Below are positions 1,391-23,341 of a DNA stretch of 64,000 nucleotides, one piece after another. Position 1 is the first letter of the stretch; each line of letters starts with the position of its first letter. The stretch lies in contig JAFTXI010000046.1 of NCBI GenBank assembly GCA_017461665.1, positions 67,419 through 131,418 of the forward strand. The letters run 5' to 3'. Under the pieces are notes generated by a model. The model was not told the origin of the DNA. It was given only the letters and a program-made list of their open reading frames with translations, and searched no databases. This DNA comes from Bacteroidales bacterium. GTDB lineage: Bacteria > Bacteroidota > Bacteroidia > Bacteroidales > F082. The position numbers were made by a program, and so were the translations under genes.

Positions 1391-4300
1391 TTATTTATTC
1401 TCAGGTAAAAGTTTTTCCAATTCAATAATTTTCTGTTTATATGCTTCAATGAGTCTTCGTATTGCATCGTAGTCTGTTCCGTCTTTATCGTCTGGGATAT
1501 CGTTATTGCCGTCTCCTGGATTTTGTCCCGAATTGCCGTCTGAAGGATTGGTAACACCATCAGAACCTTCGTTTGGATTTCCGTCAGCAGGAATAGTTCC
1601 TGCCCCAGCACCTGGATTGTTTCCAATATTAGTTTCACCATCTGACGAAGAATTGTTTCCATCATTTGGATTTTTAGGCGATGAGACATTATCACCACTT
1701 GAAGGACTTACTGAATCGTCACCATTGTTATTGTCACCATCATTTGAAGGCATTTCTGGAAAAATTCCTGTTGTAAGTGCAATTAAAGCATCATCAACCT
1801 GAATCATTGGAGGTACATAATCAGAAACACGTTCTCCTGTTGCTTGTAAAATATGTAAAACCTCAGATATTGAAATTTCAGGATTACAGCTCTTCATCAA
1901 TGCAATAGTTCCAGACACAATTGGAGCGGCCATACTTGTACCATCATAAGCTGCAAATTCATTGTTGGGTACAGAACTTAAAATATCTTTACCCGGAGCT
2001 GAAATGTTTGAACCGATACCATAATTAGTAAAATCGGTGCCTTGAATTTGCATATCGACAGCAGCAACATTCAATGTTTTATCAGTTCTGTTTTCGGGAG
2101 GAATGTTTGCCAAAATATTGTCATTTCCTGCTGCAAAAACAATAATGGCGTTATGTTCATTAGCAACGTTTATAATACGTTTCCAAACAATTTCTTCATT
2201 CTTAAATTGTGTTCTTGCAATATATTCCTGGTCTTGAATAGGCAATATATCCAATCCATTAAAATTAGGACCTATTGAAACATTTATCACATGTGCTCCA
2301 TTATGGATAGCATACATAATACCATTTGTAATAGACGAAAATGTACATAGCCCATTGTCAAAAACTTGTACTGGCATCAATTTACATTTTGGAGCTATAC
2401 CAGAAACGCCCGTGTCATACATTTTGTCCGAGCCAACGGCAAGTCCAGCGACATGAGTTCCATGACCTTCTCCAGTACTGAGTCTGTTGTCTTGTGTGAA
2501 TACATTATAAGGATTTATGATTCTTCCTTTAAGGATGTCGTGATTTGCATCAATTCCATCATCAACGACAGCGACCACAATCTCAGGATTTCCCTTTGTT
2601 ATTTCCCATCCTTCCTTGAGGTCTATCGCATCAAGATGCCACCCTTGATTTGCCATATTTTCACGGCCATTACCCTTAAGAGAAAATATAGATTCATCAA
2701 TAATAAAAAAATCATAATTGGGCAGCTGCTTGTTTAGATTTTCTCTAATAACATCTCGCATATTCTCTGGTATAAGAATCTGCATCATTGGCACATTTCT
2801 ATCCAAGCCAATAACTTGACATTGATCTTCTGAATATATCTGAGACAAGTCCGCTATAAATTGTTCAAGATTTACATCTGCATTTTCAAAATAGATATTT
2901 AATCTATTTGCTACAATATCAGGTGCACCCGGATTTGAAATTATAGGAGGATTTTGGCCATCTTCACCAACAATAGGAGCGACGACATTATTATCCGGCA
3001 GACTACCATCATCACCAACAATTCCTTTTATCGGTCCATTGTTATCTATTGTTCTTCCATCTGGAGTTTCTATCACAGGTGTAGGAACAACCGTATCACT
3101 TCCATGAGATGAGCCACATCCTCTAAATAAAAATGATAACAACCATATAAACAGAATTATCAATAAGATCCACAAGAGCCATTTTAAACAACCCTTACCT
3201 GTTAACGCTGTCCATATTCCAGTAAGCCATCTCCAGAAACGTTTGTACCATGGTATCTTTTTCTCATACTGAGCGATAAAAGTTGTATCAGCATTAAGAA
3301 CGAAGCCATTTGGAGATTTGTTCCATCCTACAAATTTGTATCCTTTTTTAGGGTTTGTTTTTGGAACATCATTTTCGTCAAGAGTTGTTCCATAAGGAAA
3401 TACGAATGTATCTTGTCCTTCAATATCACCGAACTCTCCAGAAACAAATCTGCAATTCACATTTATTCTTTCAAAAGCAGCCGTGAATACAGTATTATCA
3501 TCTATTTTTTTATTAGTCGAATCGTTCCATCCAACGAAAGTAAATCCATCGTTCGCAATTACAGACGGAATATTTGTTTCGTCAATATATGAGCCTTTAT
3601 TGATAATATGTTCCGTCGTACCGATTAAACAACCTTCTCCGCCACAAAGGAATGTGACACGAACTGTTTCTGGTTCGTTTGTGGCTTCTTCAATAGGAGT
3701 TTCTTTTTCTTCAATAAATGATTCTTCAACAACAACTTCTACATATTTAGCGACAAACGTCAATGGTTTGTCAACTTTCATTCCTATTGGATTTGGCTCC
3801 CAACATTTAAAAGTAAAACCACTTTTAGGTGTAACATTAGGCAAATCATTAATACCCAATATAGTACCATCAACTCTTTTAACATTTCCTACCAATTTGT
3901 TAATCAGAGTTCCATTATCACCAACTATAAATGATATTTTATGATATGCTTGTATCTTTAAATCATGTATTATTGCACCTTTAACAATATGCTTGTTTGA
4001 CTCAGGAGACATTCCCCATGCCACGACTACCACTTTGTTGTCATAGCAGAACATAAATTCCTCATCAATGTGTTTGATTGCACCTGACAGAATTTGTCTA
4101 TCTTCCCCTTGTAATTTCTTGCACACATCTTCATATACAGCCACTGTTTTTTCTTTGATAGCGGTGTATTTAGTTTTCTCTGTTCCAGATAAATCTTTAA
4201 ATGCAACAGGTTGATTTGTCCATTCACATACATACCATAAAATCTGGTCTTCATCAGAATATATAGGATGTGCCAGAAAGTCTCTATATTGAGATTCAAT

Positions 4301-4435
4301 ATTCTTCTCAATTACGGAATATACACTATCATATCTTTTATATAGTGGATCTCTACCTATTCCTTGAAAATCAGTAAAGTCTGTAACCTCAGTATAACAG
4401 AGTTTTCTTTTTCCATATAAAGTATGTTCTGCCAT
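1391..4435 (-). CDS. Membrane-anchored subtilisin-like serine protease with InlB-type repeats
   Basis: This is a 1014-residue peptidase S8 with all catalytic residues: Asp about 625 in AVVDDGI, His about 658 in GHGTHVAG, oxyanion Asn about 771 in FAAGND and Ser about 834 in GTSMAAP. The N-terminal half has no signal peptide. It carries three beta-grasp repeats of the InlB_B/Flg_new type (pattern GF.F.GW..., about residues 170-395), followed by one membrane helix near 420-440 (WLLWILLIILFIWLL). Basic residues precede this helix, so the protease domain should face the periplasm. After the catalytic domain comes a low-complexity N/G/D/S/P tail and a short C-terminal helix. The ATG at 4435 is chosen over an upstream TTG. 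It sits 8 bp after the srfC-like gene. The substrate is unknown, and repeats on the cytoplasmic side would be unusual. Confidence 0.93.
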   Translation of the reverse strand: MAEHTLYGKRKLCYTEVTDFTDFQGIGRDPLYKRYDSVYSVIEKNIESQYRDFLAHPIYSDEDQILWYVCEWTNQPVAFKDLSGTEKTKYTAIKEKTVAVYEDVCKKLQGEDRQILSGAIKHIDEEFMFCYDNKVVVVAWGMSPESNKHIVKGAIIHDLKIQAYHKISFIVGDNGTLINKLVGNVKRVDGTILGINDLPNVTPKSGFTFKCWEPNPIGMKVDKPLTFVAKYVEVVVEESFIEEKETPIEEATNEPETVRVTFLCGGEGCLIGTTEHIINKGSYIDETNIPSVIANDGFTFVGWNDSTNKKIDDNTVFTAAFERINVNCRFVSGEFGDIEGQDTFVFPYGTTLDENDVPKTNPKKGYKFVGWNKSPNGFVLNADTTFIAQYEKKIPWYKRFWRWLTGIWTALTGKGCLKWLLWILLIILFIWLLSFLFRGCGSSHGSDTVVPTPVIETPDGRTIDNNGPIKGIVGDDGSLPDNNVVAPIVGEDGQNPPIISNPGAPDIVANRLNIYFENADVNLEQFIADLSQIYSEDQCQVIGLDRNVPMMQILIPENMRDVIRENLNKQLPNYDFFIIDESIFSLKGNGRENMANQGWHLDAIDLKEGWEITKGNPEIVVAVVDDGIDANHDILKGRIINPYNVFTQDNRLSTGEGHGTHVAGLAVGSDKMYDTGVSGIAPKCKLMPVQVFDNGLCTFSSITNGIMYAIHNGAHVINVSIGPNFNGLDILPIQDQEYIARTQFKNEEIVWKRIINVANEHNAIIVFAAGNDNILANIPPENRTDKTLNVAAVDMQIQGTDFTNYGIGSNISAPGKDILSSVPNNEFAAYDGTSMAAPIVSGTIALMKSCNPEISISEVLHILQATGERVSDYVPPMIQVDDALIALTTGIFPEMPSNDGDNNNGDDSVSPSSGDNVSSPKNPNDGNNSSSDGETNIGNNPGAGAGTIPADGNPNEGSDGVTNPSDGNSGQNPGDGNNDIPDDKDGTDYDAIRRLIEAYKQKIIELEKLLPENK

Positions 4436-4443
4436 AGACTTAA

Positions 4444-7254
4444 TCAATTATATAATTTTCTATTTGTATCTATTATTTCTTTTATACTTGCATTCGCAAC
4501 AGGGTCGACATGAGAGATGTCACTGGCATATAATAAGCCTATAGTTATAAAATTCTCCCATCTTTGATAACTATCCCAAAATGGCAGTTTCTTCAAAGTT
4601 GTCAAATCTATGCGAGAATTATTCATCTCATCTCTCGATTGATCCAATGCTGATAGGACTTCCAATAAAGGTTGAGGTTTTATGTTATGACTTGATGCTG
4701 CTGGAGACAAATCAATCTCAAGTTGACATTTTTTTGCTTTTTGAGAAACATTCATCATATCTTCATCAGATATATATTCTCTACCTACCGTACTAACAAA
4801 ATTATTAAGTGCCAATGAAGCGTAGTCTGCAATTGCATTAGGAAGAGCATTCATATCAAAAACAGTATAATACTTGTTGATTTTATCTGAAATATGTTTT
4901 TTGACACCCAACTTATTCAACAACGTCAACATCATGAATATCTCATCAGCATGAGGCAGAACATCACTCATTTTTTTAACCTGTTCATTGATATGGTTGT
5001 TCCAATATTCAACAATATGTTTTGCAATAACATCAGGCACTGTGGCGAGCAATTCACTTTCATCTGAAATAATATCCTCTAATGTGATACCCATTTCGGT
5101 AAAGAAAGCTTTAAGTTCCGATTCTTCTTTATTATATCTTTTACACAGTTTATGTATATTTAACGCTCTATCGTCATTTATATCAATTTCACAAAAAGCA
5201 CGAATCATTTTTATTGATGATACAGTCTGAGGTTCATCAATATGACGAACGATAATATCATAAGCAATAGTTCTAAGTTCGGATGATGACACCATCAAAT
5301 TATCTATGATATTACCGAACAGTTCAGGTTTTTCCCCAAAAGCAAATTCTGTTTGGAGTTTTATATCACCTGTTATTTTACGGATTCTTATGTTATTTTC
5401 TTCTTTATCGTCAGATTCGTGATAAACACTTAATCTACTTGTTATTTCATCTCTAATTTCAACGAGTTGCTGGAAATATCTTTCGTGTCTTGCATTATCA
5501 AGAACTTCTGCAATAGCATCTAAATTTCTTATAATAGCCTTAGAACCATCATTGTTGATTGACGCGACATCGTCCCATGCCTGCTGAGGTTTTGCAAAGT
5601 GTTTTTTGACGAATTGGTTTGTAAGAAAACTTTCTCGAAGATCATTAAAATAATTTGGATAGTCTTCAAATGCATGTACATTACTTTCAACAGTTCCTGT
5701 TTTTTCGTTATATCCATCGAACACCTGATTTTTAGAAGACCAATAAAAGTCTCTGAGTAGATATACATTCTGGAAATACGGAGATTTAAATACACAGCCC
5801 AATGACACCCATTCATCCATCCATTTTTCTGATCCGATTATTTCAGGAAGTATCTTATTAAATCTAACCCAATGATTATCTAGCTTAGATATGTATTCAG
5901 GTGTATCATTCTTGGTTTTCTCTAAATCAACATTAAATTTTGTGCATATCAAAAACAATGGAGCAATACCATTTGTTTTTGATAGCACACCTGCTCTTAT
6001 CTCAGCTGTTTTACCAATATTATTTTCAATCCAACTATAAATTGACGAGCCTATTGTTGGCTCTGTCTTTTGTTGATGATGATGACAGAAAAGAACAGAA
6101 CTAATTTTTAATGAACGAGAATATTTATTAAATAAATAAGCGACTTTACCTCTTCGTAATATTGTTGGCAACATTTCTCCAACTTGTTCCTCTTTTATTT
6201 TTTCACGAGACCTTGCACCTGGAAAGTCCAACAAATCAATCTTCTTTAAAAATTTTCTTTCAGCAGCTATTTCCTCTGATAACACAAATGTTAATTCACC
6301 TATCAAAGCCGACAAATATGCTTTGCTGAAATCTTTCGCAATTATATTACCATTACAGTCAAACACATCCGTATATAACACATCATCACTTGTTTCTTTA
6401 TATATACCACAAACAGAGTCAAGCCAATCAATTTTAAGCAATGTTCCTTTATCACGCAGTACAGCATCAAATGGTACATATATTTCGGTTATGAACCCCA
6501 ATTTCTTATATTCATTAATGAGTGTACTGAATAGTCTGTTAAGCTCAGCATTATTATTCCAGATCAGTCCAAATATATTTACCCAGTTATCATAAGGAAC
6601 ACGATCTATAACAGGAGCTACAATTTTACAGAAATTGGATTTATATATAAATGCGGCATTATGACCTATAATATCATTAAGATAATCGCAAATATCACGA
6701 ACATCATCTTCTGTAATGATATTGTGAACTGGAGACTTTGCGTTCCATAAATCTGTCATCTGAGAAAGGGCATTATCGATATCTGTATTCAATAAACAAC
6801 TATCAGTATTGATATTTACATCGTTGTAATATGAATCAGCCAATAACATTATAATGTCAACGACAGATAGATTTGTAATTTTCACATAATCTGCCATTTT
6901 ACTATTACATTGCCTAATTGTAAAACGCGTTATTACTCCTGTAGATTCTTGTTGAGTTGTATTACCTCCACTTGGATTTATCTTATCAATAAAACTATAT
7001 CGTTTTCCGTTATTTTCAATAACGAATGGAGTTTCCGGAGTAGATAAAAGACTACTCATAAGATAGGATTTACCAACTTGGCTCTCTCCATAGGCTGCCG
7101 CAGAACAGTTTTCTGAAAGTGCGTCTGCAATTCTTTTTAATCTTCTACGATAATTTTTTAAGACTTCCCTTGGAAAAGAATCTTTGCCATATTTGTCAGC
7201 CCATGCTATCGATTGCTTAATAACATCAATGTTTGTGATTATGTCTTTTGTCAT
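4444..7254 (-). CDS. SrfC-like P-loop GTPase (putative virulence factor family)
   Basis: A 936-residue protein with a P-loop GESQVGKS at residues 56-63, a G3-like motif D-F-P-G near 343-346 (in DLLDFPGARSR) and a possible G4 motif ICTKFNVD. The rest is a long, mainly helical region. Size, P-loop context and position directly after an SrfB homologue match the SrfC family, named after the Salmonella srfABC locus. The fold is that of dynamin-like or septin-like GTPases. The ATG at 7254 is preferred over a TTG 15 bp upstream. It is separated from srfB by 24 bp and from the protease gene by 8 bp. A mechanoenzyme or switch role at the membrane is inferred; the family has no settled biochemical function that I know of. 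Confidence 0.85.
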   Translation of the reverse strand: MTKDIITNIDVIKQSIAWADKYGKDSFPREVLKNYRRRLKRIADALSENCSAAAYGESQVGKSYLMSSLLSTPETPFVIENNGKRYSFIDKINPSGGNTTQQESTGVITRFTIRQCNSKMADYVKITNLSVVDIIMLLADSYYNDVNINTDSCLLNTDIDNALSQMTDLWNAKSPVHNIITEDDVRDICDYLNDIIGHNAAFIYKSNFCKIVAPVIDRVPYDNWVNIFGLIWNNNAELNRLFSTLINEYKKLGFITEIYVPFDAVLRDKGTLLKIDWLDSVCGIYKETSDDVLYTDVFDCNGNIIAKDFSKAYLSALIGELTFVLSEEIAAERKFLKKIDLLDFPGARSREKIKEEQVGEMLPTILRRGKVAYLFNKYSRSLKISSVLFCHHHQQKTEPTIGSSIYSWIENNIGKTAEIRAGVLSKTNGIAPLFLICTKFNVDLEKTKNDTPEYISKLDNHWVRFNKILPEIIGSEKWMDEWVSLGCVFKSPYFQNVYLLRDFYWSSKNQVFDGYNEKTGTVESNVHAFEDYPNYFNDLRESFLTNQFVKKHFAKPQQAWDDVASINNDGSKAIIRNLDAIAEVLDNARHERYFQQLVEIRDEITSRLSVYHESDDKEENNIRIRKITGDIKLQTEFAFGEKPELFGNIIDNLMVSSSELRTIAYDIIVRHIDEPQTVSSIKMIRAFCEIDINDDRALNIHKLCKRYNKEESELKAFFTEMGITLEDIISDESELLATVPDVIAKHIVEYWNNHINEQVKKMSDVLPHADEIFMMLTLLNKLGVKKHISDKINKYYTVFDMNALPNAIADYASLALNNFVSTVGREYISDEDMMNVSQKAKKCQLEIDLSPAASSHNIKPQPLLEVLSALDQSRDEMNNSRIDLTTLKKLPFWDSYQRWENFITIGLLYASDISHVDPVANASIKEIIDTNRKLYN

Positions 7255-7278
7255 ACACTTCAATTTCAAAAAATTACA

Positions 7279-10200
7279 TTAAAATTCAAAAACACCTGAA
7301 TCTAACCAATATTGATCGTCAACGCCTAAACTCTGGATATGTATTTCTATACTGCTATCAGACATTTCCACTCCATTTCTATCTACGATAGAGGTTATTG
7401 CAAGACATTCTTTATCGTCAGGATCACGATCAATCGTAATTTTAAACGGCATACGTTTTTTAAAGTTTTCCACCTCCTCATTAGCCATAGACTGTACGGC
7501 TGCGTCAGAAGGATATTTACCATTGCTTGATGCTTTGTTACGAATTTTATTTACCAAATTCATATAATTGAAATCAATAGAATATAGTGCTCGTGACGGG
7601 TAGGTCGCTAAGCCAAACTGACGAACATTTAATATGTCAGGTATTTTACTTACCGTAATTTCACCTTGCAATTTATCTGGAGTTATTAGATATTCGATTG
7701 CATGTCCATCACGAGATGCCTCAATATAATTTACAGTTGATTTAAGATTATTCTTCAATTTTTCCAAGTTTATAAAGAACTTATCCAAATTGGAATACTC
7801 TGAAGCATAATGACCAATAACGCCACCCATCGCAACAATTGTCTTAGGATTAGTGATATATCCTGTATTTTGACAGAATGGATACCAATCGCCCACATAA
7901 TAATTATTCAATGTTATAAGTCTATTCGGAGAAATAGGATAATATTTCAAGAAAATATTTCTAATGACTGGTAATGACGACGGTCTTCCTGATAAAAGTA
8001 TTACATCACAAGAATATGCGAAAAACATTGCCGCAATTTTCTTTAAGAGCGGTTCAAATTCTTTAGATATTATATCCGCAACAAATTCTTTGTCATATTC
8101 CCAAGTAAGAGTAGTTATGTCTATTCCCATTCGTATCTTAAAATCTTCAATAACACGACGACTTGGTTGATTAACTTTAAACACATCATCGTATTTTACG
8201 ACACAACTACAACTTTCATTTGATGCCAAGTTTAAGAAATATGTCATCAGAGGAACTGAATATTGTATATTAAAATCTCGTCTTGCAATACGATCTGCGA
8301 AAGTCAGACCATTGTAATCGGGTCCAAAGAAATTCTTGATTTTTTGTCTGTATTGTATAGGATCGAGATTACGTAAAGCTTTACGGAATGCGCTATATTT
8401 TTCATCAAGTAACATAACGTTCTTTACCAAAGCTTTAAGCATATCATCTCCGGCGAAATAAAAGCTGTCATAAAACTTAGGATCTGGTGTTATTGTAGTG
8501 AGGTCACCTTTTGTGTAAGAATATTCACTAATCATTAAGTCCGAAGTTCCTGCACCTATATCCAATGAACCGACAGTTAGTGTAGGCTGTTGGCTTCCAT
8601 TTGTAGATTTGCCATACAAATTAAAGAACTCACTACAAATACCTTTATACTTATGTCCGGCTTCCCCATATATATAAACAAGCTGAGCACATGTAGCCTC
8701 ATCATAATACCAAGAACTTTCATTATCTTTCATAGAACGCACAGAAGGTATAATTTCAATACTTGGAATATTATCCCCGTATGTAAACCTGCCATATAAA
8801 GTTACGGCGTCTTTAGCACATTTTACCAAAGCCTCTCTTTCTATTTTAGACATAGCTGTCGGACATGTGACAATTATACGCTTAATTTTACGAGGAAGTG
8901 TTTTCCAACCGACATTATTTCTGTATGACTCACTATTAATCTGAGTGTATGCTTGTGTTAGCATTTCGAGAAATGCAAATGTCATCAAACTTCTTCTCGA
9001 ATAATGTGATGATCGTCCACCATCTGCACCTGTCACGTCAATTCTTCCATCGCTCATCAAATGAGAACTAACTCCTTTAACGTTCAATATATGACTTGAT
9101 TCTTCACCATGCAGAACAAGAAACTCCCATTCTTTCTTACTTGGTTTGTTATCCCATAAATATCTTTTAGGACTTGAATACGTTGACAAGGTTTCTTCTT
9201 CCAACGAAGAACCACAAGCTCTATGTATCAGAGTATTAGCCTCTTGTCCTAATCTAATAAAACTTGGATAAACAAATTGACGACTATCATTGATACCAAA
9301 ATTACCGAAATCTACGCGTCTAAATGCCAACCTCATATCGAAAGGTTCATTGTATGAACGAATACAAGCCCTATCTTCTTTTTCAATTAGTAAATCTGTA
9401 TAATCTATTAGACTTAAAGGCCTGACTTGATTAAAATTAGAGTTGTCTTCAATTAACAATGCCGTTGTTTTAGAATTACCAATATCAACGACCATATCAA
9501 CATACCGCACCTCTACATCTTGGTCTTTATACAACTTGACTGTTGGAAACAACTTATTTTGAGCCAAATAGTTAATTAGAAAAATGTAAGAGGCTATATA
9601 AGACATTTTGTGAACATTAGCACCTCTGATTTGGGACACACTTCCTAGATTAGGGTGTACAAGCTTAAATATATATTCGTCTATATAACTCCATTTCTTC
9701 TGAGGCGAGCAAAAATCCATCAGATAAAATTCGTTATCGCATAACGAGAAGTTCATTTCCGAACAATATTGGTCTGGGAATACAGGATGTTCATCATAAT
9801 CATTTGAAGTGTATCCGGCTCTTGTATCAAATGCAAGAACTACATCATACTCTATTTCCATTTTTCCACATACTCGTGGTATAAACTTAACGCGAGCCCA
9901 ATTTTTAGGGCTGAATTTAAATCGTTTTTCAGTCCTTTTGAAAAAATAAGGAAGAGGTAACCATTTGTTCTCAAAGCATTTTATGGCATTATGCTTGTCA
10001 GAAAATGTAAGTTTATATAAATCTCCTCTTATGCCAGAGCATACTTCGCCATCTATCATAAGAGGATTGATCCCATCATTTTGTAGTTCAGATGGATCAT
10101 ATTCAATCGTTGGATCATTAAGATAACCACCTTCAAACAATTCATATTTGTCATAAAACAAAACATTATCCTCCGTTGCGACTTCATGAGCAAGATCCAA

Positions 10201-10326
10201 TCGCCAGTGTCCGTTACTTGTGTCGTACCATTCATGAAACCACATTTTGAATTTATCTTGTGTATTTAACTTTAATATGAATGTTATAAGTTGAATACCA
10301 GAATTAGCTATAAGAGTATGATTCAT
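7279..10326 (-). CDS. SrfB-like actin/Hsp70-fold ATPase (virulence factor SrfB family)
   Basis: About 1015 residues. The actin/Hsp70/sugar-kinase signatures are visible: a phosphate-1 motif VDIGNSKTTALL near residue 280, a phosphate-2 motif LDIGAGTSDLMI in the second half, and an adenosine-type motif ILLSGRPSSLP. This is the layout of virulence factor SrfB. An N-terminal domain of about 270 residues precedes the ATPase core. The start at 10326 is supported by the upstream sequence AGAGAGGAAAAAT; the longer frame to 10383 runs into a structured RNA element. It is the first gene of the cluster, followed by the SrfC-like GTPase. An ATP-driven partner for the GTPase is a reasonable inference from the constant pairing of SrfB with SrfC. 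Confidence 0.88.
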   Translation of the reverse strand: MNHTLIANSGIQLITFILKLNTQDKFKMWFHEWYDTSNGHWRLDLAHEVATEDNVLFYDKYELFEGGYLNDPTIEYDPSELQNDGINPLMIDGEVCSGIRGDLYKLTFSDKHNAIKCFENKWLPLPYFFKRTEKRFKFSPKNWARVKFIPRVCGKMEIEYDVVLAFDTRAGYTSNDYDEHPVFPDQYCSEMNFSLCDNEFYLMDFCSPQKKWSYIDEYIFKLVHPNLGSVSQIRGANVHKMSYIASYIFLINYLAQNKLFPTVKLYKDQDVEVRYVDMVVDIGNSKTTALLIEDNSNFNQVRPLSLIDYTDLLIEKEDRACIRSYNEPFDMRLAFRRVDFGNFGINDSRQFVYPSFIRLGQEANTLIHRACGSSLEEETLSTYSSPKRYLWDNKPSKKEWEFLVLHGEESSHILNVKGVSSHLMSDGRIDVTGADGGRSSHYSRRSLMTFAFLEMLTQAYTQINSESYRNNVGWKTLPRKIKRIIVTCPTAMSKIEREALVKCAKDAVTLYGRFTYGDNIPSIEIIPSVRSMKDNESSWYYDEATCAQLVYIYGEAGHKYKGICSEFFNLYGKSTNGSQQPTLTVGSLDIGAGTSDLMISEYSYTKGDLTTITPDPKFYDSFYFAGDDMLKALVKNVMLLDEKYSAFRKALRNLDPIQYRQKIKNFFGPDYNGLTFADRIARRDFNIQYSVPLMTYFLNLASNESCSCVVKYDDVFKVNQPSRRVIEDFKIRMGIDITTLTWEYDKEFVADIISKEFEPLLKKIAAMFFAYSCDVILLSGRPSSLPVIRNIFLKYYPISPNRLITLNNYYVGDWYPFCQNTGYITNPKTIVAMGGVIGHYASEYSNLDKFFINLEKLKNNLKSTVNYIEASRDGHAIEYLITPDKLQGEITVSKIPDILNVRQFGLATYPSRALYSIDFNYMNLVNKIRNKASSNGKYPSDAAVQSMANEEVENFKKRMPFKITIDRDPDDKECLAITSIVDRNGVEMSDSSIEIHIQSLGVDDQYWLDSGVFEF

Positions 10327-10349: not shown

Positions 10350-10396
10350 AAAAAAGCGTGGAAACTATACCTTGCTCGAACACCGGGTTTCCACGC
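10350..10396 (-). terminator. Intrinsic terminator hairpin between leader RNA and srfB
   Basis: GCGTGGAAAC (10396-10387) pairs perfectly with GTTTCCACGC (10365-10356), ten base pairs, followed at once by six T residues on the minus strand. It is 24 bases upstream of the srfB start codon. Its 5' arm overlaps the 3' arm of the leader's closing stem, so the two structures exclude each other. Confidence 0.75.
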
Positions 10397-10506
10397 CCAC
10401 CAATCTAAACAAGTTATTCCACGCCGTAACGGATACGGCATTTGGTAACTCGGCCTTGATTGGTTTGTCCTCCAAAGAGGACGTTGTGGAAAATTGGTGT
10501 TCAAGG
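10356..10506 (-). ncRNA. Structured leader or small RNA upstream of srfB (candidate)
   Basis: On the minus strand this stretch of about 150 nt folds well. The 5' segment CCTTGAACACC (10506-10496) and the following TTTTCCAC (10493-10486) pair with GTGGAAA (10394-10388) and GGTGTTCGAGCAAGG (10384-10370), making a long closing stem. Inside are two perfect hairpins, GTCCTC/GAGGAC (10482-10467) and GCCGTA/TACGGC (10439-10423), plus an outer pairing CCAATC/GATTGG. The same GTGGAAA strand can instead pair with GTTTCCACGC (10365-10356), forming a terminator. The element ends 30 nt before the srfB ATG. It could be an attenuating leader or an independent small RNA. Confidence in structure is good, in class low. 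Confidence 0.55.
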
Positions 10507-23167: not shown

Positions 23168-23220
23168 AATAAAATTATTTTTGCAAACTTATTAAAAAAA
23201 ACAATATCTTTGTGGCACTT

Positions 23221-23341
23221 TCAATAGGGGTGCCTTTTTTACTTGACGTAAAATGAAAACGGCTGAGATCACACCCTCTGAACCGGATACGGATAATGCC
23301 GAGACCGGGAAATGAGATACATCAAAAATTTCCTCCTATTG
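23221..23341 (+). promoter_or_regulatory. TPP (thiamine pyrophosphate) riboswitch
   Basis: The THI-box core is present: GGGGTGCC (about 23227-23234), GGCTGAGATCACACCCTCTG (23261-23280), AACCGGATACGGATAATGCC (23281-23300) and the closing GAGACCGGGAAATGA. It lies directly upstream of a TonB-dependent receptor gene on the same strand, which marks the receptor as thiamine-related. TCAATAGG at 23221 can pair with CCTATTGA at 23334-23341, enclosing the aptamer. A 12-bp hairpin (ATTGATTTAATT/AATTAAATCAAT) shares ATTGA with this pairing and ends just before the ATG, so it is a plausible expression platform. Confidence 0.93.

Follow-up and report, generated by a model that had tools for sequence, protein, structure and literature searches.

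A predicted leader RNA preceding srfB belongs to an apparently undescribed, Bacteroidota-wide family of structured RNAs with two mutually exclusive folds

What is the role of a highly structured stretch of about 180 nt that separates an ABC-2 permease gene (11825-10722) from srfB (10326-7279; PF07520 SrfB, E 4.4e-219) on the minus strand of the window, the 64,000-nucleotide stretch of Bacteroidales DNA that was analysed here? The element occupies 10523-10350 and is followed at 1391-10326 (minus strand) by a cluster of srfB, a Virul_Fac (SrfC-like) gene and a gene for a subtilase-domain protein. The original prediction took it for an attenuator or riboswitch controlling this cluster, in which a closing stem and a terminator compete for one strand, and mentioned a stand-alone small RNA and a 6S-like RNA as alternatives.

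The predicted RNA folds into a rod (fold A). The minimum free energy of 10520-10340 is -69.7 kcal/mol, compared to -45.8 ± 4.2 kcal/mol for 200 dinucleotide shuffles (z -5.7), none of which folded as well. A 5' hairpin P0 (10523-10507, ATAGC/GCTGT) precedes a closing stem made of P1 (10 bp, 10505-10496 with 10384-10375), a CCC bulge and P2 (7 bp, TTTCCAC at 10492-10486 with GTGGAAA at 10394-10388), and this stem opens into a three-way junction that carries hairpin P3 (10482-10467, GTCCTC/GAGGAC) and the arm P4-P5, in which P4 joins 10463-10448 to 10414-10400 and hairpin P5 spans 10441-10421. The terminator 3' arm (GTTTCCACGC, 10365-10356) and a run of six U (10355-10350), both read from the window sequence, are left as a free 3' tail. 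P0, P3 and the 5' strands of P1 and P2 were placed by the predicted fold together with family alignments, P4 and P5 by the alignments, and the 3' strands of P1 and P2 by the window sequence and alignment. It had been predicted that GTGGAAA(C) at 10394-10387 pairs either with the upstream TTTCCAC, in a closing stem of about 18 bp, or with GTTTCCACGC directly before the six T; both partners are present, the closing stem measures 17 bp (10 + 7) with its bulge, and the two perfect internal hairpins (GTCCTC/GAGGAC and GCCGTA/TACGGC) are there as well. The second of these pairings gives a terminator, T2, with GCGTGGAAAC (10396-10387) as its 5' arm in the window sequence.

Besides P0, that description lacked an alternative pairing, which was spotted because one other copy of the element (L037) has it as its minimum free energy structure. 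In this fold B, placed by the family alignments, 10520-10501 pair with 10459-10438, by which P0, P1 and part of P4 (10459-10448) are removed. The 3' strand of P5 continues into GCGTGGAA (10424-10417), and fold B frees it for pairing, as a 5' arm, with 10363-10356 of the terminator 3' arm; this terminator, T1, also contains an inner helix of CTTG (10413-10410, part of the P4 3' strand) and CAAG (10374-10371). A simple terminator scan of the window element called no terminator, most likely because it permits loops of 3-8 only. A further stem that would close the element from outside, by pairing its 5' flank to the U-run, was considered and rejected as too weak: its energy is -10.7, compared to -9.9 with an sd of 3.2 in a control of swapped copies (n = 140).

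Judged from its sequence, the element is one copy of a widespread structured-RNA family and not a local srf leader. With a 191-base BLAST query and a cut-off of E ≤ 0.1, 57 of 100 relatives had a match, a count that includes the own genome and of which the weakest matches are short and may be due to chance; at E ≤ 1e-5 matches were found in 45 of the 100 (43 among the 60 genomes of the window's genus and 2 among the 40 others). There were up to eight places per genome. Sixty copies were aligned (alignment A1, which omits L035, whose region is identical to that of L034, L032, truncated at its 3' end, and six matches weaker than E 1e-30). A covariance model built on 30 copies (R1) detected the RNA in 49 of 393 genomes and 33 of 206 genera of the order at E ≤ 0.001. 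With a second model (R2), built from 106 matches, it was detected at class level in 81 of 395 genomes, about a fifth, and 51 of 197 genera (E ≤ 1e-4), and in a phylum sample of 198 genomes 17 contained it; the own genome is counted in each of these searches, and the E-values are rough owing to a shortened calibration of the models.

At E ≤ 0.01 the own genome yields 14 matches, and the five lowest-ranking ones are weaker than E 3e-4. One tandem pair (L315 and L321, contig C24) lies upstream of a single lipoprotein-like gene with about 80 nt between the copies, and a second pair, on contig C26, is about 550 nt apart. The window contains a diverged second copy at 60839-60632 (minus strand), a weak match outside these 14 (R2 29.6 bits, E 0.0012 for the window) with terminator arms CGTAGGC/GCCTACG recognized by eye; it stands upstream of a 591-aa ORF (60505-58730) whose TerB match is below the Pfam cut-off. 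Moreover, scanning named genome contigs with a pattern yielded at least 116 stretches, and R2 detected the RNA in 53 of the 79 to which it was applied. All of these except one come from Bacteroidales, Bacteroidia or Bacteroidetes MAGs (52 of 53, with one Lentimicrobiaceae and one Paludibacteraceae), for which the named sources are mostly ruminants, deer and horses; the exception is labelled as a 'Bacilli' MAG and is likely a binning error. The 26 stretches without the RNA, which are the sole specificity control for R2, belong mostly to other phyla (Streptomyces, Halomonas), together with one Saprospirales and one Flavobacteriales MAG. A plasmid search with the window's element gave no match.

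The family is apparently undescribed. In Rfam 15, the window element matches no family up to E 5, 15 order-level loci gave no match at the gathering threshold, and a single match of the L262 copy (E 2.3) is at chance level. The 6S-like RNA proposed earlier, by likeness to a long rod with an internal loop, was rejected, as the 6S model gave no match up to E 5 either and as the element, unlike 6S RNA, occurs in many copies per genome and carries a terminator and a conserved second fold before a codirectional gene. At 20 class-level loci the matches were confined to DUF805, DUF805b and, below threshold, a rimP leader, all outside the element. The DUF805 and DUF805b motifs (RF03081 and RF02914) bear a cis-regulatory label in Rfam but are separate and short (35 and 68 nt), and the element matches neither model. 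At three loci such a motif stands right behind a family copy, above gathering in L286 and below it in L280 and L322, which suggests that two leader elements are used together. By eye, the next ORF is lipoprotein- or secreted-like in L286, L280 and at a DUF805b site in the window, and not in L322. This window site (30651-30621, minus strand) is a DUF805b RNA above gathering that occurs without the element, before a lipoprotein-like ORF at about 30599. The window further holds a TPP riboswitch (RF00059) at 23216-23327 on the plus strand.

With transcription-attenuating riboswitches and attenuator leaders the element shares its place as a 5' leader, alternative folds that share strands, a terminator before the gene and, in places, tandem copies; it differs from them in having no Rfam 15 family match, no common pathway among its downstream genes and no known ligand. 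A literature search, with supplements, most subscription papers and preprints outside its reach, turned up no account of this RNA. In the accessible part of a Flavobacterium psychrophilum transcriptome study, structured 5' elements without Rfam hits and the sRNA Rfp18 are reported (PMC9723704); these are likewise structured Bacteroidota RNAs, and they were compared by description only, that part of the text printing no sequence for them (PMC9723704). A human-microbiome RNA survey, as far as its accessible text goes, places its candidate lists in supplements (PMC8040213).

A covariance analysis of the homologues, one of the checks named with the original prediction, found the pairings conserved with compensatory changes. 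Two alignments were used, namely A4 (106 rows, of which 105 distinct and two short fragments; fitted to fold A and omitting L032, L035 and L064) and the sequence-only A2 (30 copies, taken from a P1 length class of 34). Fold A showed 961 two-sided compensatory cells on A4 compared to 223 ± 17 in shuffles, on the 105 distinct rows of an alignment that was fitted to this very fold, and 130 compared to 50 ± 6.3 on A2. For the 5' helix of fold B, 133 two-sided cells were counted on A4 (34 ± 16 in shuffles), and for T1, its outer arms and inner CTTG/CAAG helix taken together, 28 (7.3 ± 2.3 in shuffles); on A2, fold B with T1 had 22 covarying cells against 9.6 ± 2.3. The distant copy L246 illustrates the latter, having both T1 arms changed (CGAGGAACAA/TTGTTCCTCG). 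Other measures on A2 did not exceed the shuffles: covarying pairs of fold B with T1 numbered 6 compared to 5.0 (170 of 500 shuffles reach 6), and pair types were reached by 139 of 500 shuffles for fold A and by 466 of 500 for fold B. The shuffles keep the relatedness among the copies; slid controls were lower for A, B and T1, as they tend to be by construction. Two mutually exclusive folds, one of which includes a terminator, are thus conserved with compensatory changes, fold B more weakly so on A2. From the original layout this retains a leader RNA with mutually exclusive pairings and a terminator among them, whereas neither the link to srf nor an exchange between closing stem and T2 as the decisive step was supported, for reasons given below.

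Several signals indicate which strand is transcribed and where. The pairs of fold A contain 498 G-U compared to 63 A-C cells, and the modelled strand is therefore the transcribed RNA strand. A T-run was detected in 137 of 141 copies, with at least 5 T in 132. The exact motif TAnnTTTG, which we take to be the Bacteroidetes -7 box, occurs within 120 nt upstream of 83 out of 137 copies, compared to about 8.7 expected from mononucleotide shuffles (28/61 close, 26/39 order-level and 29/37 class-level copies); it is missing in 33 of the 61 close copies, and its distance to the element is variable. The best promoter candidate found by eye in the window is TAATATTG (10613-10606, minus strand), which has one mismatch to TAnnTTTG and lies in the gap that separates the ABC permease gene from the element.

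Energies and prefix folds were computed for 104 close and order-level copies, with the 37 class-level copies left out; the prefix folds represent equilibrium energies and not a kinetic simulation. Among the 63 close copies, P0 was present in 55 when the RNA had reached consensus position 30 and the fold B helix in all 63 at position 100, and by position 158 P1 had formed in 62 copies and P2 in 59. Of the 41 order-level copies, 18 contained the B helix in their minimum free energy structure at position 100. At full length the rod is more stable than the T1 fold, with a median difference of 13.8 kcal/mol among 62 close and 15.6 kcal/mol among 35 order-level copies; the T1 fold is the lower one in 3 close and 0 order-level copies.

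Genes around the copies were called mechanically as ORFs with ATG starts only, without a gene finder. The set comprised 141 copies with a length of 120 nt or more, and 135 of them had a downstream ORF in the sequence at hand; two 59-nt matches of L057 do not enter into the counts of neighbours, energies and prefixes. In 122 of the 135 the closest downstream ORF runs in the same direction as the element (56/62 close, 35/38 order-level, 31/35 class-level), and in 105 it starts within 150 nt, so that by its position the element is a 5' leader on the same strand as the downstream gene. Of the upstream ORFs, 85 out of 131 share the direction of the element, 14 out of 35 among class-level copies. 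For the longest ORF with a start within 300 nt, the ATG lies at most 40 nt past the U-run in 50 of 123 copies and at most 20 nt in 23; genes starting within 40 nt can therefore hardly own a promoter behind the terminator. These distances bear on the alternative, also raised earlier, of a stand-alone small RNA whose terminator always works, the rod being the mature, trans-acting RNA, while the downstream genes rely on other promoters or on background read-through. The great stability of the full-length rod, the promoter-like box, the RNA's own terminator and those downstream ORFs that begin more than 200 nt away would suit such an RNA. The prevailing codirectional orientation, the start codons too close to the U-run for a promoter, as with the 23 nt that separate the ATG of srfB from it in the window, and a conserved second fold (B/T1) that serves no evident purpose in a plain small RNA argue against it, and we consider this alternative unlikely.

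Downstream of the family, the genes are of many kinds. A Pfam tally of 105 of the 131 downstream ORFs, each with at most its first 450 residues, gave zinc ribbons (8), BspA-type LRR (6), Por secretion tails (6), HTH_26 (5) and TonB plugs (4), and no common pathway was seen among these 105 proteins in the best 25 of the 78 families, so that no ligand is suggested. The claimed tie to the srf cluster did not hold, since other copies precede many unrelated genes: SrfB is absent from the same best 25 of 78 families (the last of these 25 have 2 members), and a leader specific for the srf operon was rejected, the window's own protein being the SrfB among the 105. By a crude rule based on hydrophobicity, 58 of 122 downstream ORFs have a signal-peptide-like start, whereas among other ORFs the figure is 197 of 720 (Fisher p 1.6e-5, relatedness not corrected for), and in the own genome the ORF after 10 of the 13 non-window copies starts by eye like a secreted or membrane protein. 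Of the 122, 18 begin with the motif HIG..IK of the small HTH proteins, often with the ATG directly after the U-run. In L034, L039, L040 and L065, a shared AGTTGC(G/T)C was seen by eye between element and start codon, continuing as CCGACAC in two of them.

On the upstream side, copies in the window's genus sometimes come about 37-91 nt after the end of a toxin-antitoxin-like gene pair, either nucleotidyltransferase + HEPN or DUF4160 + DUF2442, as at 634-1463 in L011 and 874-1431 in L010 and similarly in L036, L037, L040-L043, L045, L047, L053, L060 and L082. In 66 neighbourhoods (63 of the window's genus and 3 from genomes G062 and G093), the nearest upstream gene was HEPN-type in 13 and DUF2442-type in 5, one of each type being confirmed by Pfam. 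An RNA associated with toxin-antitoxin systems was nevertheless rejected: upstream orientation is unbiased at class level (14/35 codirectional), and the adjacency is therefore taken as a habit of the genus.

The diversity of downstream genes is also what would be expected of a general antiterminator. The RNA might act on RNA polymerase or recruit a factor, comparable to put-like or NusG-paralogue type antitermination, the rod being the active form that lets polymerase pass this and later terminators without any switching by a ligand. A highly structured rod as predicted ground state and the predicted strand exchange during synthesis are in line with this; the compensatory changes in T1 and fold B rather suggest a regulated choice at this very terminator, which makes this explanation rather improbable.

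The exchange put forward originally, in which the closing stem P1/P2 competes with T2 and fold B plays no part, finds its strongest ground in the window and its near relatives. The T2 stem is a perfect 10-bp helix in the window and is more stable there than T1 (-65.0 compared to -55.8); RNAalifold on 60 close copies picked T2, at least 7 of its 8 pairs can form in 62 of the 63 close copies, and T1 is the lower in energy in only 7 of these 63. Beyond the close copies the picture is reversed. Only 14 of the 41 order-level copies can form 7 or more of the 8 T2 pairs, compared to 34 of 41 for T1 (63 of 63 among close copies), T1 is lower in energy than T2 in 21 of the 41, and on A4 T2 has 0 covarying cells (0.6 in shuffles), fewer than slid versions of itself. 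As the T1 pairs are kept and covary across distant copies, T1 is taken as the terminator of the family, with use of T2 by the window copy a possibility, and an attenuator of closing stem and T2 alone is accordingly given a low probability.

That the copies act as DNA, as a mobile repeat or recombination site with incidental structure, is very improbable: they are numerous, some in tandem, several near contig ends and, in the window's genus, some beside toxin-antitoxin-like pairs, but the G-U versus A-C asymmetry marks an RNA strand, a U-run and promoter box are present, orientation is tied to the downstream gene and two-sided changes preserve the pairs.

The element is thus probably the 5' leader of srfB and a member of a Bacteroidota-wide family of transcription-attenuation leaders, in which, according to sequence comparison and folding models, the rod would permit read-through and fold B with T1 would terminate. 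The analysis shows both sets of pairings, their conservation, the strand, the position and the distribution; promoter use, the order of folding, the rod as ON state and the existence of a trigger are what we infer. Transcription would start at a promoter in the gap behind the ABC-transporter gene, and in the nascent RNA P0 would form first, followed by fold B, which pairs the 5' strand with the middle of the element. The emerging 3' half would then allow fold B to rearrange into the rod (P1-P2-P3-P4-P5). If fold B is still present when the U-run is made, the 3' strand of P5 would join the terminator 3' arm in T1, and transcription would stop; conversely, if the rod has formed first, this strand is held and transcription would continue into the gene. 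Because the rod lies far below the T1 fold, termination would need kinetic trapping or a stabilising factor, and as it needs the persistence of fold B, the rod is most simply the read-through state. The balance could be set by some trigger, be it a metabolite, a protein or the speed of transcription.

Bacteroidota are major gut and environmental bacteria, and a leader RNA with two covarying folds in 81 of 395 class genomes, often in multiple copies, would amount to a large orphan regulon whose regulating signal can now be sought directly. Tentatively, the family may represent a new class of natural RNA switch that senses one signal, possibly the state of the envelope or of secretion, or a metabolite, by means of its three-way-junction rod and co-ordinates a scattered regulon by transcription attenuation. 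This regulon would comprise genes for secreted proteins, lipoproteins and small regulators, and the switch itself would be spread through the Bacteroidota, the one genome searched in full having upwards of a dozen copies. The leader RNA family as such links genes that otherwise have no common annotation.
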